DNA of 64,000 nt from Citrus sinensis (Eukaryota > Streptophyta > Magnoliopsida > Sapindales > Rutaceae), in the NCBI RefSeq assembly GCF_022201045.2, contig NC_068559.1:24807501-24871500 (forward strand), read 5' to 3'. This document shows positions 15,343 to 27,380 of the stretch, one piece after another (position 1 is the first letter of the stretch; every line of letters starts with the position of its first letter). The position numbers and the translations under genes were made by a program. Under the pieces are notes generated by a model, which saw nothing but the letters and a program-made list of their open reading frames with translations, searched no databases and had not been told where the DNA came from.

Positions 15343-18300
15343 ATGGATCACACGCCCACATCTCGGCGGACCCCGAAGCCGCCATCGAGATCGGAAATCT
15401 ACTCAACAGTCGTAATTCACGACGACGACGATGATGACGATGACGATGAAGAGACCAGATACGACTCAGATTCCAGAACCAACTATTCGCAGAACGACGC
15501 CGTCATGGAGGACGACGACTCCCTCCCCCCGCTCCTCAAACGCCTGCCTAAAGATTTCGGCGCCGCTCCTCCCGAAGACGATGACGAGGAAGACGGAGAT
15601 TTTGGCACTATGATCATCAAAACCAGAACTAAAACTAAAGCTAAAAACAGCCGTACGATAGTGAACAAACCGTATTCGGAGTTTAAGAAAACGGACGGTG
15701 ACGATGAGTTCGGGACGTTTGTTGTTAGATCGAAGGACGGAGAGAGGAGGAGCGGAGGATACGACGATTCGACGATGGGGAGGGCGGTGGCTAGCATGCG
15801 GAGGTTTGGGAGTAGCTCGTCGTTGCATGGAGAGGATGTGAGGCAGCAGACAAAGGTGTCCTCGAGCTCGATCCCGGAGAGTGTTACCAGAGAAGATCCT
15901 ACTACTAAGTATGAATTGCTCAACGAACTCGGTGCGTCTTGAACTCGAATTTAGTACTGAATTTTTTCTTCACTTTTGTTATTATTTTTTATTTTTTTTT
16001 GAAATCCACGTACTGACTTCTGACAGGTACTGTTAGTTAATCCTGTTTTTCTGTATGAACATGAATTTTCTCTTTTGATCGTTTTATAATTTCTAAAATT
16101 GTGCTTCTACTATTTAAGCAGCAAACTCGGTAGGCTATGTGCTTTCAAAATTAATCTGAATTAGAAGCACAACAGTTACAGATAGGCTCTTAGTCAAAAT
16201 TTCAAATCAATTACAGCTCTGGCATTTTTAGTTGGCTCTTTTGGGGTGAATTGGAAAATACTTCAAGTTTGTAAGGCTTTTCAATGAGGCATATAATATG
16301 CTTTGTACTTTGTGCTTAGTGTAAGGCTTTTCAGCAAACTTTGTGCTTTATTAAGGCATTTTTTCTCCTTACCAATTGAAAAAAAATAGAAAAAAGAAAG
16401 GGTTTGTTTGCTCGTGGATAGCTGATTTTGCAGTATATTTTGACACTGCTGATACTTGTTTGTTTGGTTATTGTTCTAATTTTTGAGGAGGCAGGGAAGG
16501 GGTCTTATGGGGCTGTTTACAAGGCTAGAGATCTTAAAACTTCAGAGCTTGTTGCCATCAAAGTTATATCATTATCTGAAGGGGTATAAATGTTTCCTTG
16601 TTTGGTATGAAACTATTTTCTATGATTGTTTTAAGTTGGAGGGATTGCAGGAAATGAGTTTTTGATGTTGTTTGTGTTCAGGAGGAGGGATATGAAGAAA
16701 TTCGTGGTGAAATTGAGATGTTGCAGCAGTGTAGTCATCCGAATGTTGTCCGCTACCTTGGTAGTTACCAAGGGGAAGAGTATCTTTGGGTGGGTGGTTC
16801 GGCATTTGCTAAATACTCCTTGTTTCCATAGCCCGTCGAATCATCATTGTCGGGTGTTTAGAGTTCAGTATAAATAATTTTGTTATTTGGCAGATAGTGA
16901 TGGAGTATTGCGGGGGTGGAAGTGTGGCTGACCTGATGAATGTTACTGAGGAGCCTTTGGAGGAATATCAAATAGCATACATTTGCAGGGAAGCTTTAAA
17001 GGTATCCATAACTTTGATAAGTTTGAAAATGAATATTTAAATATTAAGCAATGTAGTGTCATACATATTTCTGCCTGCCTTTCTTTCTCTTATTATATGC
17101 AGGGCCTTGCTTATTTGCACTCAATTTTCAAAGTCCATAGAGATATCAAGGGTGGTAATATCTTGTTGACTGATCAAGGAGAGGTGAAGTTGGGTGAGTA
17201 CGAATCATCAAACAATATTAATTTATCAAAAACAGTGCGTTGGTGCATGTTGTAGGTTTTGCATTTCACTTCCAGCCTGTGATATTGTTAGTTTTTGTTT
17301 GTACTTCAATCCTAATTGTTGGCCTCTCCATCTTCCCTCCCTTCCCCCCCTCCCCCCCCCCCCCCCCCCCCCCCCCCCCGGGTTTTCTAATTTCCCTTTC
17401 TCAGTTCGTGGTTTCCCATTGCAAAGTTAGCATATTGGTTCTCCATTTGCTTGTAACAGTTCATTGATTCAGAACTTTGGTGTCAATTTATCAGGTGATT
17501 TTGGAGTTGCAGCGCAGCTTACAAGGACCATGTCAAAACGTAACACGGTATTTTATCGTCTAACTTTTGCATAAATAGTTAGACGGGTGCTCGAGGTTTC
17601 TAGAAAGCTGGCATTACAAATGAGTAGTAATATTTGATTGAAGTGATAAAGCATTTTAACTTAATCTGCTCACCTTGGAATAAGTAATATGTTTTCCTAG
17701 TTGCTCATTTCTTTTGATTTTACTCTCTGGATTATGTACCCAAACGGTAACGTATTTGATATATGGATTTTGCTTTAATTTCTTATATCCTAATAAACTA
17801 ATTTTAACTTCTGAGTAGTACTAGTATGTCATAGATTTTGAGATTTTGTTGCAAATGCGCTGGAGAAAAATAAAAAGAGTAGTGATTTCTTTTGCCTTAA
17901 TGTTCATATGGATCTTCCTATTTGCTTATGTGAAAGCCAATTGAATTTTTTAGCTAAAATATTTCCTTCGAGTTTGGTATTTACTCTGCTTTTATGTTTA
18001 TTTTTTCCTATTTCTTTTTACAAACTCCATTTTGTCACTATTTCTACATAACTTGGTCTTTTTGTTGGCATTTGCCAGTATTGCTCCTGCATTGATGACT
18101 TCTTTTGTTACTCTGTATGGATTTGACTTCTGATAGTATGTTTTATGACCTTCTACATTGTTTCAGTTTATTGGCACTCCACATTGGATGGCTCCAGAAG
18201 TTATTCAGGAAAGTCGATATGATGGCAAGGTATTGTATCTTTTGGCTGCATGAACTTTATTTTCTTTAAATCTCCTTCTTGCTTTGTGGTTCACCATCTC

Positions 18301-21300
18301 ATCCTTTCCATCATTGGTAGAATTAAGTACCTAAGTAGCAGAGGAAACAGGTTTTAAGTATAGATGTGTATGCTAAAGTACTTTCATGGATTATGAGATA
18401 GATTGGTTATGGGGCTGCCTGATCCTTGGCTAACTACTGCATTTATTTTAACATCTGAATAGATTTGTCATAAAAAAGAAAAAGAAGGAATCTGAATAGA
18501 TTAAGGAGATATTTTTTCTACTTGTACCCGCTTGAGTAACTAGTAGTTTTGGGATTTTGGGCCTCAGTAATAGTGAAAAGTGGATTTTAGGATTTTCTTC
18601 ACTGATGCTGGACGCATATATAATTTTGATGGGTAACATAATGTTGATACTTCCATTGAGGAACGAGTTTGGTTAGGTGTTCTTGTTGAGCACTATTTCT
18701 TTTTCCTTTCTTTTTTATTTTTCTCTTTAATGCTTTTGTATTTGGATTTGATTGAGGTCATCGGATATCTTCTTGTCTTAATTTCAAGTTTTATTTGAAG
18801 GTGACTAATCTCCAGATGTGCATAAAAAACAATATAAATTACTAACACAAAGATTGTGGGTATGAAGTTGAACGAAAACCCTTGGAAGCACAAGTGGACT
18901 GATCTTTATACAAGATTAGGTGGAAATCACACGAAAAGCTTAAGAAACATATCTGAAAATTTTGTTACTTCAGTAAGTAATTTTTTAATGACATAATGAA
19001 GAACAAAATGTCAATCAAGCAATCTGATTATGTGATTAGGGTTCTAATGTCCTTTATGGATATTTGTAAATCCACATGACTCTTGTTCTTCCATTTGTTT
19101 TTTTCCGAAACCCTTTTGTGAGTACTTCGTTTGTTTTCGTTCTTATTCTTGAAATAAACAACCCGCACACACTCCCTTTCCAACCATCACATTCAAATGT
19201 TGAATCTGTAAGTTTTAGAGCAATGACTGTCCTGTTTTAGCTATTAATGATGAGGTTCTTGGATTAATACTTGGTTCCTGTGCTATTGGGAAGCTTTGAT
19301 ATGGTGCTGATTTTGCTATGATAAGTCATTGGTCATGCTAACTTCTTGGTACGCTTTCAAATCATCTCCCAGGTGGACGTTTGGGCCCTTGGTGTCTCTG
19401 CAATTGAAATGGCTGAGGTATGTCTGTCCAGGGGATAAATGGCTCCACTGTTCTTCCTGCCCCCCACAAAAAAAAAAAAGTTATCTGTGAAATTTTTTTC
19501 CCCCTCTGAATGAGCAATTTTTTCCAGTCATATCTTTTTTTGTGCCCTTGCCTTAGGTAATCTTAAGTCATTTTAGTTTCTGCCAGAGATATTCTTGTAT
19601 GATTATAAAACCTTAGAATTTGTCCACATTCTTGCCTGGGGGTGCCTGGAAGGCTGGAATGAAAATATAACTCAGTAGAGTTGAGTTCATCAATCTTAGC
19701 TTTTCCGTTTATCAACTTATTTAGAATCTCTTCATCGAATCATAAATTGGCTCCTTCTATTTCTGTTTGGTAATGATGTTTTGAGCACTGCTATTCCGTA
19801 TTTTCTTTTTCCTATTTTCAGGGCCTTCCTCCAAGGTCAACGGTCCATCCGATGAGGGTTAGTGCATTTAATTTCTTTTTAATCTGAACTCTTTATATTT
19901 TGGAATACTGAAGCATTTGAACTTCTATATTTTAATTGCCTTAATTTATATTGATGTTGGCTTCAACTGTCACTACATTATTTCTTGATACAGAAGCTAC
20001 ATCTGGATCTGTAAATTGTAGGATGTTTTGAAGATGAAGAGTGGGGGATAGATGTCCCAAAACATAAAATTGAAAGTTTGCTCATCTTAATTAGGTGTGA
20101 GAGATCACCATTCAGTTTGATGTATTATGGTTGATGGAACTGCTATGGACAGCCAAAATAGTTTTAAGGAACAGTTTGGTTGGTTTGGCCTCTTGCTTGG
20201 GAAGCAAGGGATCAAGGGTGTGAATCCCCTTCATACAAATGGAAGGGAAGTATTTTAATTTGGGGTGGGATACATGATAACTTACAGAAAATGGAGTATT
20301 GTGGGAATACGCCGTTTGGGATAATCTACAGGGATGGATATGATGCTTAAATAGATTGAGGGATTCTGTGGGGGCGATTCATTATTGTTTTAGACATCAT
20401 TTCTTTTTTATAAATTAGAAAATGATAAAGAAACATGGTCAGGTTATTTTTGGAAAATGGGAGCAGGCTTCAATATCATATATATTTCTTCTGCTGTTAT
20501 ATAGATTTACATGAAGAAGTTTTTACTCCATTTTTTCTCTTATTTCCATGTCTTGTAATTCCTTTTCATTTTTTGTATTCAATTTTTGCTTATTAAGAAT
20601 GTGACTTATTAATTTTTTATTATAGGTCTTATTCATGATATCCATTGAGCCAGCTCCAATGCTCGAGGATAAAGAGAAATGGTTTGTTATTTTAGTTCTT
20701 TTTGTGAACAATCTCTTAAAACAAGTCCTCTAGAAACATTGTCTTGCAAGTGGCTTAGAAATTCAGAATATGATTGCCATGCTGAACAGATTCTTTTGCT
20801 GGCTTTATGAGTCAGCAACCGAATTTGCAGCCATTATTTTCTATGCCATATAATATGTCACATTCATCGGCCATCTTCTCTTTACAGACCCCAGTTCTTT
20901 TAGTCCTTTCTGTTTCCCAAGTGTTTCATTCTCAAACCATATCCCGTTTTACAGGTGCAGTCATCAGATTCATCGCAGATAATCAAAAGACTTTAGTAGC
21001 CTTTCTTTTCATAACTGCATCTGCAGTTTCATTCTTTTGTTGCCTTTTGCATGTATGCACATGCTGTGGTTTCCTGAGCTGTCATGCAACTTGTTGCTTG
21101 CAAACAGTCCAAATCCCGCAAATTTGGTGGGAATTCATGGTCATTCAACATTATATTACAATTTTTCCTAAAAAGATATTGATGATCATCATCGGGTCTC
21201 TTTTTGCTTAAGTTGTCTATCTCTGGTTAAGCCCTGTTTTCCTTCATAAATTTCTTTTGGGTCTGCTTTTGTAATGCATATCCCCTATAACCTTTTGGTT

Positions 21301-24300
21301 GTAAAGTACAAAGTTGGGGTCTCAAGTCATTAATCCAGCTTCAATTATGACACTAAGAAATTGCAAAAGACATAGTTGGAGTTGTTAAGGGTGAATTTTT
21401 GCTGCATTTAGTCAGCTTTTGGTTATACTCAACTCAATGATCCTTATGGCACTGCATTGTAGAACAAAAGACATAGTTGGATGTATTGACTCCTCCACCA
21501 GAGGCTGTGGGCTCATGTATGGTAGCCTTTTAAGTATCAGTTTCCTTATACTCATAAATCTGATGATGTGTCTCAAAATCAGAGGAATAATCATAAAAAA
21601 TTCCCACATCTTTCTAGTAAAGATTGTGCCTACTTATGCTTGTTTCATGACTGGCATTGTAAATCAATGTTTAAATTTGATGATTCTCATTCAGGTCTCT
21701 TGTCTTTCATGACTTTGTTGCAAAATGTCTTACCAAGGAACCGCGTGCTCGTCCCACAGCAGCTGAAATGCTTAAGGTATGGTAATTATTGGTTTCTGTA
21801 TAATGTTGTCCTAAGAATTTCAATTTTGAAAAAGCTTGGTGCAATTATTCCTAAAGTAGTTGTTAAACATGAATTACCAGAAAAAGCTTCTCGCATTAAG
21901 ATTTAAAATCCACTTGTCTTAGTTTCCATATTGTTTTTATGCTCCAGTTGTCATTTTTTATAGAGTTTTCCATATTGTTTTTTATAAGAGTTTTATGTGC
22001 TTCCTAAGTAATATACTTTGTATCTCCATTATAGATTGTGAAAAATGCTTTGAATGCCTGCAAGAATTATCTGTGTTTGATGACCTTTTTTTTGGGGGGG
22101 ATGGGACTATGTAATAGTTTGATCTCTTAATAACTACAAGGAGAAAAAAGAAAAAAAGTTTTGCCTCTGTGATCACCATGATTTAGTGAACCATGTGATT
22201 TATATTCACATAGTTATAAGCTTTTGATAAATATAGTACTTATTAATACCTTTTAAGGATCAGACAACTACCTGTTGAGATTCGTGATGTCAAAACACCT
22301 GTATATTCATGTTCGCTAATGTCTGCTTGCATGTGCATGTGTTTTGTCTCTGTTTTTCTAACTTATATTATATAATTGGTATGCATTCTTTTGTTCTATT
22401 CTTATACTTTCCTACTTCAAAGCTATTCTCTTCATTTCAAACTTCAGCACAAATTCATTGAAAGATGCAAATGTGGAGCTACTGCAATGTTGCCAAAGAT
22501 TGAAAAGGCAAGGCAAATTAGGGCCTCAATGGCTCAACAAGCACAAAATATTCTCTCAGACGAACCAGAAGTCAATGTATGCTTCTATTTCCTTACTTTG
22601 TGTGCTCAGACATGTTATAAAATCTGTGTATCTCATCATCACACACACACACACACACAAACATGCACATACTGCTTGCATACATAAACGTTATATTTTA
22701 AGTATATATGTGATATATCATTGATTGTGCTTGTATTGCTTCCGGTTCTGAAACAGGCAACAATGGGTCTGAAGTTGAATGAGGATTACGGAGATACCGT
22801 GCCATCAAAGCCTCAGGTTCAAGTGACAAATGAAGTGCTTGCAACTAGTACTTTGAAAAAGCAACATACGTTGGAGGATATGGAAGAAGGTATTGCTTAC
22901 TCTGTGTATCTTATATTTCTAGTAAAATTCAGTTATTAGAAGGAAACTGTATTCAAACCCTAAATCACATTACAATTTGATTGCATTATTCTTATGTTGC
23001 TTTATCTTCATATTGAAATGCGGTATGGTTGTTGTGTGCATACTTTTAACTAAGATAAGAATAATGAGCAAACTAAAAAATTGTTGTTTCTTTTTAGTTA
23101 GTTCTTCATATAAACTAACTCTCACTCATGGGGAAAAATTCTCAAGTTTATTTACCATCTGACAATCTTAATCCAAGTTTGGATTGCATACTTGAGCCTG
23201 TTTGCTGGTGATAAATGGGAACCATGTAAATATATTGTGTAGTTAACCTTGTTTCTCTGTGAAGTATTGGTTACTGGGTAGAGAGAGCAAATTAGTTCAC
23301 TTCTTTCTGATTTAGCTGAAATCTTTGTTAAACAGGTGACTTTGGGACTGTTGTAGTTCATGAGACTGATAAAACAATATCCAAGACTCAATGTTCCAAT
23401 ATTAAAGAATCTTCAACTCTTCCTGGACATACTGAAATTAGTGGCACTGGCGGCAAATTGGCTGATGTCAGGTATTTCCTACCCTAGATACTTCATATTT
23501 AACTTGGAACCACATGTATGATTCTTGTCTTTTCTCTTTGCTCCAGGAAAATGCCAAATTTTGTTTATTTGGCTAAGATTATCTTTTGGTATATACAATT
23601 GTGGCAATAGATTTCATAACCTCGGTTTGTAACCTATCAATTAATTCCTGTTATGTATCTTCTTTAAAAAAGTTATTGTTTGCCTACTGAAGTGCCTGAT
23701 TCATTTGGGTATCCTATCCTATTAGGGTGGACGGTGCAGCAGGTGTTGCTTTAAACAATAAATTGGTTGGTGAATCACATCATCTTACACATACAATACA
23801 ACCTTCTTCTGCTGAAAATCTCAAGACAAAAATTTCTCAAGGACAGATTGGTAGTGGCAGGGATACCGGCAGTGGCGCATTGAAGAGTGAAACAGTCAGC
23901 AAGAAAGCTTTTGCTTTGCAAGACAAGGTGATTTTTGTTTTAAACTCTATTTACACCAAATAATTGAGGAATGGTGATAAATTTTTTCCAGATTGCATTA
24001 TAACTAACCTGACCTGAGCCCTTGGCTCCAGTGTTACATTGAAGTTGGAATGAATTTGGAAACTTCTAGAACTTTGTGAAAGTATGTAAGAACGTATAGA
24101 AGTCGAAAATAAATGGTTAGATTTTTACCCTATCAAGTTTATTTTGATATTTAGACAGTCTGTAAACATATGGTAGTTTAATTCACAAGAAACTCAGTAT
24201 TTCATTTCCTGAAGTTCAGAATGACCAGGTCTTGCTTTTCTGTTTAACGTTTTTCCTTTGCTGAGAAAATTGCTTAGTTACCAGATGCTTGTTTAGTTTG

Positions 24301-25136
24301 GCTTACCCTGCCTCGTGAAATTGAGTGATGCACTTTATTCTCTCTCGTTTCATTTAGGCATGCTTTATTGCTTGTCATGGGACTGCAATGAATATACCTA
24401 ATATTTAGTGCTTTCGGTTCCTGCAGCTTTGGTCCATATATGCAGCTGGTAATACAGTGCCAATTCCAATTCTGAGGGCAACTGATATTTCCCCTATTGC
24501 TCTCTTGTCGGACAATGTACTGGGAGCCATGCAACATGATAACAAAGGAACGGTGGCAGTGGAAGCACTGCAGGAACTTTTTACTGGTGATGGACAATCC
24601 AAAAAAGGACGAAGGGGCCAAAATGAGGTTAGACCTCTTGCTCTCTCTTTGTATGTGTGTGCACCCTATACTTTTGCTTGTCTTATAGGCTGTTTAATGT
24701 GGTACAGATTCCCCTCCCTCCAAGTGTCTACCAAAGGCTCACTTCAAGTTCCACGCTATTGAATCTGGCTCAGGCTTTAGCTTATCATAGAATGTATGAT
24801 TTCATCATTCGCTCAATTATACTCGTTTGTTCTGTTAACCTGTGGCATGTTAATTTTCTCTTATTGACCTTAGGCCCAGTAAATCAGATAGCTTATGCAA
24901 TTTGTGATATTTGAAATTCCCAATTGACTCCAGATAGTGATTCTTAATTTGTCTGTTCTGCCTGTATGAGTCATTCATGTGTTGCAATTTATTTATTTTT
25001 CTAAACTAGAGCTTGTTTTGATATATTACCGTGCAGGTGTTATGATGAAATGCCACTTCAAGAGCTGCAAGTAACACAAGAGGAACAGACCATTCAAAAT
25101 CTATGTGATACCCTTCGAACTATACTCCGCTTGTAG
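15343..25136 (+). CDS. SIK1: STE20/Hippo-class serine/threonine kinase (SIK1-like MAP4K)
   Basis: Eighteen exons: 15343-15931, 16495-16583, 16682-16789, 16894-17001, 17103-17193, 17495-17547, 18167-18229, 19373-19417, 19822-19857, 20626-20681, 21695-21776, 22448-22576, 22757-22889, 23336-23471, 23726-23927, 24427-24627, 24708-24793, 25037-25136; all GT-AG, 768 residues. Exon 1 encodes an acidic, disordered N-terminus with a long Asp run (residues 27-35). The kinase domain spans about 190-445: glycine loop GKGSYG (197-202), Lys219 in VAIK, catalytic HRD (310-312), DFG (330-332) and GTPHWMAPE. The order is typical of active GCK-type kinases. The C-terminal part has a second regulatory region and a conserved tail. 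Arabidopsis SIK1 is the plant Hippo/MST relative that binds MOB1 and controls organ size and exit from proliferation. Odd: recurrent FGT-[MFV] motifs at 87-90, 123-126 and 530-533. The kinase family is certain and SIK1 orthology very likely. Confidence 0.93.
17352..17379. repeat. 28-base poly-C tract in an intron of the kinase gene
   Basis: An uninterrupted C28 run, preceded by C7 and a T, lies in the intron between kinase exons 5 and 6 (17194-17494), followed at once by GGG. The G-rich strand is the template strand and could form G-quadruplexes. Tract length may also be unreliable in the assembly. Confidence 0.9.
22640..22658. repeat. (CA)n microsatellite in a kinase intron
   Basis: About nine CA units followed by an imperfect CA-rich tail, in the intron after kinase exon 12. 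A simple sequence repeat and probable polymorphic marker; no function implied. Confidence 0.85.
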
Positions 25137-27307: not shown

Positions 27308-27380
27308 GGGGATGTAGCTCAAATGGTAGAGCGCTCGCTTTGCATGCGAGAGGTACAGGGTTCGATCCCCTGCATCTCCA
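27308..27380 (+). tRNA. tRNA-Ala (anticodon TGC)
   Basis: Seventy-three bases fold as a full cloverleaf. The acceptor stem GGGGATG pairs with CATCTCC (one G-T), the D arm is GCTCAAATGGTAGAGC, the anticodon stem CTCGC/GCGAG encloses the loop TTTGCAT with anticodon TGC, and the T arm is CAGGGTTCGATCCCCTG. The discriminator is A. There is no intron and no encoded CCA, as expected for a nuclear plant tRNA. The internal A and B boxes (TAGCTCAAATGG, GGTTCGATCC) are the RNA polymerase III promoter. A T-rich stretch follows shortly downstream. Confidence 0.97.

Follow-up and report, generated by a model that had tools for sequence, protein, structure and literature searches.

How does a plant STE20 kinase of the SIK1 type hold its partner MOB1? 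The account of the strawberry kinase FvM4K1 (PMC12576436) calls the nature of this interaction unknown, and the question is raised by a SIK1/MAP4K3-type kinase gene in a 64,000-nucleotide stretch of the Citrus sinensis genome (contig NC_068559.1, positions 24,807,501 to 24,871,500; hereafter the window). Outside its kinase domain, the encoded protein contains four threonines that are each followed by three hydrophobic residues and preceded by an aromatic residue at position -2. This feature is real and non-random. Judged by sequence, the four sites are rather likely to form a MOB1-docking array like that of the animal kinases MST1 and MST2, in a layout probably shifted N-terminally with respect to the kinase domain.

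Four threonine sites around the kinase domain

The initial annotation had pointed to DFGTMII (residues 86-92), EFGTFVV (122-128) and DFGTVVV (529-535), each in an acidic context, together with STVVIHD (21-27) and DDSTM (141-145). All are found at these residues in the spliced model, with six to seven Asp or Glu per 21 residues around T22, T89, T125 and T532. The shared motif, which had been described as FGT, does occur in three copies, but is wider ([F/Y]-x-T) and also takes in T22 (IYSTVVI). By contrast, DDSTM does not belong to the MOB1 set, as T144 has Gly at +2, Arg at +3 and Asp at -2, and fits neither the MOB1 rule nor the kinase substrate rule. As the Pfam Pkinase match, which related kinase families overlap, spans residues 190-444, three sites (1-3) lie before the kinase domain and one (site 4) after it (Table 1).

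The frequency of the motif was compared with 20,000 shuffles of residues 1-186 and 457-768 (498 residues). Threonine followed by three hydrophobic residues (M, F, V, I or L) occurs four times, against a shuffle mean of 0.51 (at least four in 25/20,000 shuffles), and three times in the N-terminal part alone, against 0.076 (0/20,000). This outcome hinges on the set of letters, with 66/20,000 where W and Y are added, and only two sites (760/20,000) where V, I and L alone are allowed. With the aromatic residue included ([FY]-x-T plus three hydrophobic residues), the four sites compare with a shuffle mean of 0.015-0.020, and four were reached in 0/20,000 shuffles. Among all six-frame open stretches of at least 60 aa in the window (19,650 residues), where the frame of site 4 is too short to be counted, this wider form was found ten times, comprising the three exon 1 sites and seven elsewhere, while FGT plus three hydrophobic residues was found twice, both in exon 1. 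Given these ten occurrences, a single site means little, but four in 498 polar residues do. That chance in a low-complexity acidic region produced the sites is hardly credible, even though the evidence comes from one protein of one species, the wider form was noticed ahead of the kinase rule, and seven matches lie in other frames of the window. Set against it are not only the shuffles and the three of sixteen genome-wide FGT matches that fall in this one gene (see below), but also the hydrophobic triplets themselves, which are not in excess outside the kinase domain (4; shuffle mean 5.6), while 4/4 of them have Thr just before and Phe or Tyr at -2 of that Thr.

Acidic flanks also characterise the ATG8-interacting (AIM/LIR; core [FWY]xx[LIV]) and SUMO-interacting (SIM) motifs, and two stretches, Y20-S-T-V23 and F530-G-T-V533, conform to the AIM core. 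It is nevertheless very improbable that the sites serve as such motifs. There are 3 AIM cores, where shuffles give 3.2, and 4 SIM cores, where they give 6.2, the latter at 0/4 of the sites; Met or Phe occupies the AIM end position in sites 2 and 3, and Thr is required by neither motif. Neither AIM or SIM cores nor strict FHA sites are enriched over shuffles.

The gene model underlying these positions has GT-AG boundaries at 17/17 introns and a frame that is open over all 768 codons. An earlier range of 15343..23471 is correct at its start, but its end is that of exon 14, and exons 15-18 (to 25136) are part of the same gene. Site 4 starts two bases past the acceptor of exon 14 (23336-23358). 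Skipping of this exon would delete the site and, as the exon is 136 bases long, would also shift the frame. Neither the 186-residue N-terminal extension nor residues 574-768 gave a Pfam match above the cut-off. A SARAH domain was not matched in Pfam by the whole protein or by residues 574-768, a search which a diverged SARAH could escape, and the plant homologues are described as being without this domain (PMC12576436). As SARAH was looked for and not found, the architecture of the protein is not fully that of an MST1/2-type kinase. Its kinase domain, taken alone, does not point to MST1/2 in particular either, since STK25 (316 bits) and STK24 (308.8) score above STK4/MST1 (302.6) and STK3/MST2 (300.2) among the solved kinases, with MAP4K3 at 300.8. 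A centrally placed kinase domain preceded by a long N-terminal part has been reported for SIK1/MAP4K3 (PMC7427426, PMC8415026), which is placed in GCK-II (PMC7427426), and for FvM4K1 (kinase domain 238-494; PMC12576436). The name SIK1 is thus given to the Citrus gene provisionally, by this published layout and the initial annotation.

Table 1. Positions in the window of the kinase gene, its threonine sites and a neighbouring gene
Feature	Position	Strand	Remarks
Site 1: Y20-S-T22-V-V-I25, then His and an Asp run	15400..15417	+	joint consensus match
Site 2: D86-F-G-T89-M-I-I92	15598..15618	+	joint consensus match
Site 3: E122-F-G-T125-F-V-V128	15706..15726	+	joint consensus match
Site 4: D529-F-G-T532-V-V-V535, very start of exon 14	23338..23358	+	joint consensus match
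D141-D-S-T144-M145, then G-R	15763..15777 (DDSTMGR 15763-15783)	+	outside MOB1 rule, nearer SLMAP-FHA type D-x-T-M-x-R
Kinase domain, residues 190-444 (spliced)	15910..22459	+	Pfam PF00069, E 2.8e-69; DFG+1 = Val333
SIK1/MAP4K3-type STE20 kinase gene	15343..25136	+	model built by hand from the genome sequence; 18 exons, 768 aa
Coding exons 1-9	15343-15931, 16495-16583, 16682-16789, 16894-17001, 17103-17193, 17495-17547, 18167-18229, 19373-19417, 19822-19857	+	
Coding exons 10-18	20626-20681, 21695-21776, 22448-22576, 22757-22889, 23336-23471, 23726-23927, 24427-24627, 24708-24793, 25037-25136 (stop included)	+	
tRNA-Ala (TGC) gene	27308-27380	+	

One intron of the kinase gene contains 28 consecutive C (17352-17379), a possible assembly or polymorphism hot spot.

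Predicted phosphorylation, the MOB1 pocket and binding data from other plants

The STE20 kinases that have been profiled, PAKs aside, prefer Thr to Ser, with an aromatic residue at -2, basic residues on the downstream side and, generally, a hydrophobic residue at +1 (PMC6445471). Although this rule was derived from human STE20 kinases, the aromatic -2, Thr and hydrophobic +1 are present in 4/4 of the Citrus sites. The aromatic residue had been spotted before the rule was consulted, and the rule itself is independent. In the MOB1 rule, based on peptide arrays and crystals, positions +1 to +3 after the phospho-Thr are hydrophobic and little is required further on (PMC5461540). Outside the kinase domain, [FWY]xT(hydrophobic) and the MOB1 rule pick out one and the same set of four sites. 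Furthermore, the kinase has DFG-V at residues 330-333, and a Val at DFG+1 is linked to selectivity for Thr in the MSTs and other kinases (PMC3898841), on which basis it is predicted to prefer Thr. All four sites are Thr, in an N-terminal part with 23 Ser and 16 Thr (chance about 0.06 for its three sites, which is weak taken alone) and a C part in which Thr is commoner than Ser (28 to 25). The N-terminal extension is disordered by its charge-hydropathy score (+0.235), and AlphaFold run on the single sequence of residues 1-196, with no alignment, gave a mean predicted local distance difference test score (pLDDT) of 50.8 and a predicted template modelling score (pTM) of 0.16.

The putative reader is present as well, as shown by a MOB1 gene read in the same genome (138/203 residues identical to human MOB1A). 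Its phosphate triad (K153, R154 and R157) is identical to that of human MOB1, as are 7/8 of the other pocket residues named in PMC5461540; position 92 is Lys in Citrus and Arg in the human chain, and is printed as A92 in that paper. Fly Mats, which shares 63% identity with Arabidopsis MOB1A, is reported to rescue atmob1a in full (PMC4778850). Another MOB1-like stretch of the Citrus genome (contig 5, 18100614-18100778, minus strand; L002, L007) contains an in-frame TAG and is possibly a decayed MOB1 copy.

Taken together, we propose that the kinase would phosphorylate itself, in cis or in trans, on up to four Thr that lie in the N-terminal extension and in the early part of the C-terminal tail, and that each phospho-Thr, with the three hydrophobic residues behind it, would dock in the phosphopeptide pocket of MOB1. 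Docking would bring in MOB1, and NDR kinase along with it, to be phosphorylated by this same kinase. With several sites, each of which may be in use, the dock would be redundant or graded.

Published data from other plants bear on this proposal. That Arabidopsis SIK1 binds MOB1, as the initial annotation had it, is upheld by papers citing Xiong 2016, according to which the N-terminal part binds (PMC7427426, PMC8415026), and a short commentary credits OsSIK1 of rice with both autophosphorylation and OsMOB1A binding (PMC12856036). In the yeast assays described for FvM4K1, the full-length protein and an N fragment (extension plus kinase domain) bind MOB1, while the extension alone, the kinase domain alone and the C part do not, and binding is lost in the K269E/T396A double mutant (PMC12576436). 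The extension alone was positive in leaf bimolecular fluorescence complementation (BiFC), which the authors describe as an unexpected interaction and a discrepancy with yeast (PMC12576436). The need for the N-terminal part, the loss in the double mutant and the split between yeast and leaves are what a docking array predicts. In yeast, the extension would meet no phosphorylating kinase unless the kinase domain is attached, whereas in leaves it could meet endogenous SIK1. Four Thr which can be named thus provide for a direct and cheap test, and for a simple possible reason for the discrepancy.

The same data could be read as binding of MOB1 to the N-terminal half by another surface, either one composed of the kinase domain and another part of the extension or that of a plain substrate, with the motifs as bystanders. 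Yeast binding needs both the extension and the kinase domain, and MOB1 is itself a substrate at T35/T36 (PMC12576436). A composite surface would, however, not predict that the extension alone is positive in BiFC, which endogenous phosphorylation does predict, and although BiFC is weak evidence, we consider this explanation improbable. Somewhat less improbable, albeit still unlikely, is that the four Thr are autophosphorylation sites with another purpose, such as activity, stability, localisation or the binding of an FHA-type reader that brings in a phosphatase, as SLMAP-STRIPAK does on MST2. The four sites do fit the STE20 substrate rule, and the TM sites of MST2 serve both MOB1 and SLMAP (PMC5663475). 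The hydrophobic residues at +2 and +3 in 4/4 sites are nevertheless asked for by the MOB1 rule and not by the FHA rule, and the strict SLMAP-FHA rule (E/D-G-pT-M-x-R/K) has 0 matches outside the kinase domain, an absence which says little by itself since only 0.0016 matches would be expected.

Several observations weigh against a MOB1-docking array. The T396A mutant of FvM4K1 shows little MOB1 phosphorylation, yet binds in yeast (PMC12576436), which would need residual autophosphorylation and is a weak point of the proposal. Loss of binding is stated there for K269E, while the yeast result described is that of the double mutant, whose bait might be misfolded. As an assay, BiFC is weak and gives false positives, and the BiFC account in the same paper states no result for kinase-only or C fragments. 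As the extension and kinase domain suffice in strawberry, a role of T532 lacks support and this site stands as a match by sequence; moreover, residues 457-570, in which it lies, are borderline in charge-hydropathy (+0.006). A weak hairpin was modelled by AlphaFold at residues 125-139, on site 3, which is weak evidence either way. The basic residues at +2/+3 that STE20 kinases favour on peptides are absent from all four sites, and these are also rarer than expected in the protein substrates of MST1/2 (PMC6445471). T353 and T367 of MST1 are without an aromatic residue at -2, and the plant motif is therefore not a copy of the animal motif. No phosphosites for these Thr were found in the literature searched. 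Finally, Arabidopsis MAP3K-epsilon binds MOB1, and the 9.9-kb stretch with its likely Citrus homologue has a single [FY]xT+3 match, in a 56-residue intronic-looking frame; with so few sites there, plant MOB1 may bind otherwise.

The proposal of the initial annotation, a phospho-Thr docking array split between the N-terminal extension and the C-terminal region, is hence retained in part. The consensus fit, the Thr-type DFG+1 residue, the kept MOB1 pocket and the N-terminal, kinase-dependent binding in other plants speak for the array, while DDSTM drops out and T532 finds no backing beyond sequence. In the open literature searched, no description of such Thr motifs for SIK1 of plants was found, an earlier description in the primary Arabidopsis or rice papers being possible, and a search with the motif letter strings matched only papers on PIEZO channels.

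Rarity and origin of the sites in the Citrus genome

Searched as DNA and irrespective of introns, the pattern [DE]FGT plus three hydrophobic residues was found at sixteen places in the 299.7-Mb genome, and the reversed pattern at ten. Three of the sixteen are in this gene and one is in a truncated copy of it, while the other twelve are single, with no other locus containing more than one. It is the clustering of the sites, and not their genome total, which stands out. Read in frame, eleven of the twelve lie in frames of 8-39 aa, which can still be exons because the own frame of site 4 is only 51 aa, and one (L055, 129 aa) lies in a non-kinase gene. The latter reads DFGTIVM, lies in a polar frame that resembles an exon (SSSNDFGTIVMDDEK) and belongs to a large gene near 14842636 of contig 7 (L055, L057); it represents a candidate further MOB1-type site. 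By its look, this gene may be PDS5-like.

Between the three FGT copies, codon position 2 is alike in 6/6 codons in all three pairs, codon position 1 in 3, 3 and 5 of six, and codon position 3 in 0, 2 and 3 of six. Five of the six flank comparisons are at background, while the T89-T532 pair shares 14/30 residues (both sides) against a 95th percentile of 12, and may have an old shared origin. A recent duplication of the copies is ruled out by codon position 3 and the flanks, and their likeness at the protein level has therefore been either kept or reached independently, a result that does not replace a comparison of orthologues.

When the genome was searched with exon 1, only exon 1 itself and the truncated copy of the 5' end were matched (contig 4, 1579013-1579366, minus strand; L039, L040; 79% identity). 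The copy comprises upstream pieces and about 125 codons of exon 1, has no in-frame ATG ahead of the matched stretch, and its kinase part was not found in the 9.9-kb stretch. It is probably a pseudogene fragment. Site 2 has been lost to an 8-base gap and sites 1 and 3 are kept, although one copy proves little. Searches for relatives with the full protein and a 72-residue kinase piece in viral_contigs, and with the kinase piece in genome_contigs, gave none, neither being a plant collection.

Among other kinases, a kinase-domain search of the genome (146 scored of 1363 candidates) gave mostly long single-exon frames, with no second SIK1-like gene discernible. The sole MAP4K paralogue looked at (L008; 541-residue open frame, BLUS1-like by the look of its sequence) has no Thr followed by three hydrophobic residues. 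A kinase-signature pattern was matched at seven places, comprising this gene, L008 and five others (9.9-kb stretches) that look like MAP3Ks and not like MAP4Ks. The five contain six [FY]xT+3 matches in total (none in L065 and L066, one each in L067 and L068, four in L069), situated in frames of 46-103 aa that are mostly intronic by their look; as these stretches were read as raw open frames of at least 40 aa, they are a weak control.

Comparison with known systems

The linker of human MST1/MST2 contains an autophosphorylated array of TM motifs bound by MOB1, including T353 (TMIEH) and T367 (GTMVINA) of MST1 (PMC5461540). Multiple Thr followed by hydrophobic residues, a Thr-preferring STE20 kinase and MOB1 as the partner are shared with the Citrus kinase. 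The latter differs in having three sites before and one after the kinase domain, an aromatic residue at -2 in 4/4 sites, Met at +1 in 1/4 (the others being Val, Phe and Val) and no detected SARAH domain. No counterpart of the second MOB1-binding helix of MST2 was noticed, a feature for which no systematic search was made. In a survey that required SARAH, Hippo kinases were traced only to Amoebozoa and their neighbours (PMC7035326). We tentatively suggest, with the odds somewhat against it, that a self-phosphorylated MOB1-docking array predates SARAH and Salvador, is common to the Hippo-type kinases of plants and animals, moved to the N-terminal side in plants, and links kinase to MOB1 in the plant Hippo pathway; the array may also have arisen independently in plants. 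If the array is real, organ-size control in plants would share the phospho-docking logic of animal Hippo despite the missing SARAH, which would bear on the age of that logic.

A Tyr-Ser-Thr-Val core like that of Citrus site 1 (IYSTVVIH) is found in the yeast protein Nud1 (NNYSpTVHQKV), which is bound by Mob1 (PMC5461540). Nud1 is a separate scaffold and not the kinase itself, and of positions +1 to +3 only the first is hydrophobic in it. The SLMAP-FHA sites of MST2 (PMC5663475) resemble the Citrus sites in a phospho-Thr followed by Met and in an acidic flank, whereas the four Citrus sites have a hydrophobic +3 and an aromatic -2. DDSTMGR (residues 141-147) comes near the SLMAP-FHA rule and may have a separate reader. 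Compared by their published descriptions, SIK1/MAP4K3 of Arabidopsis, FvM4K1 of strawberry and OsSIK1 of rice all have MOB1 as a partner and are positive growth regulators, and the Arabidopsis and strawberry kinases share with the Citrus protein the central kinase domain and the long N-terminal part.

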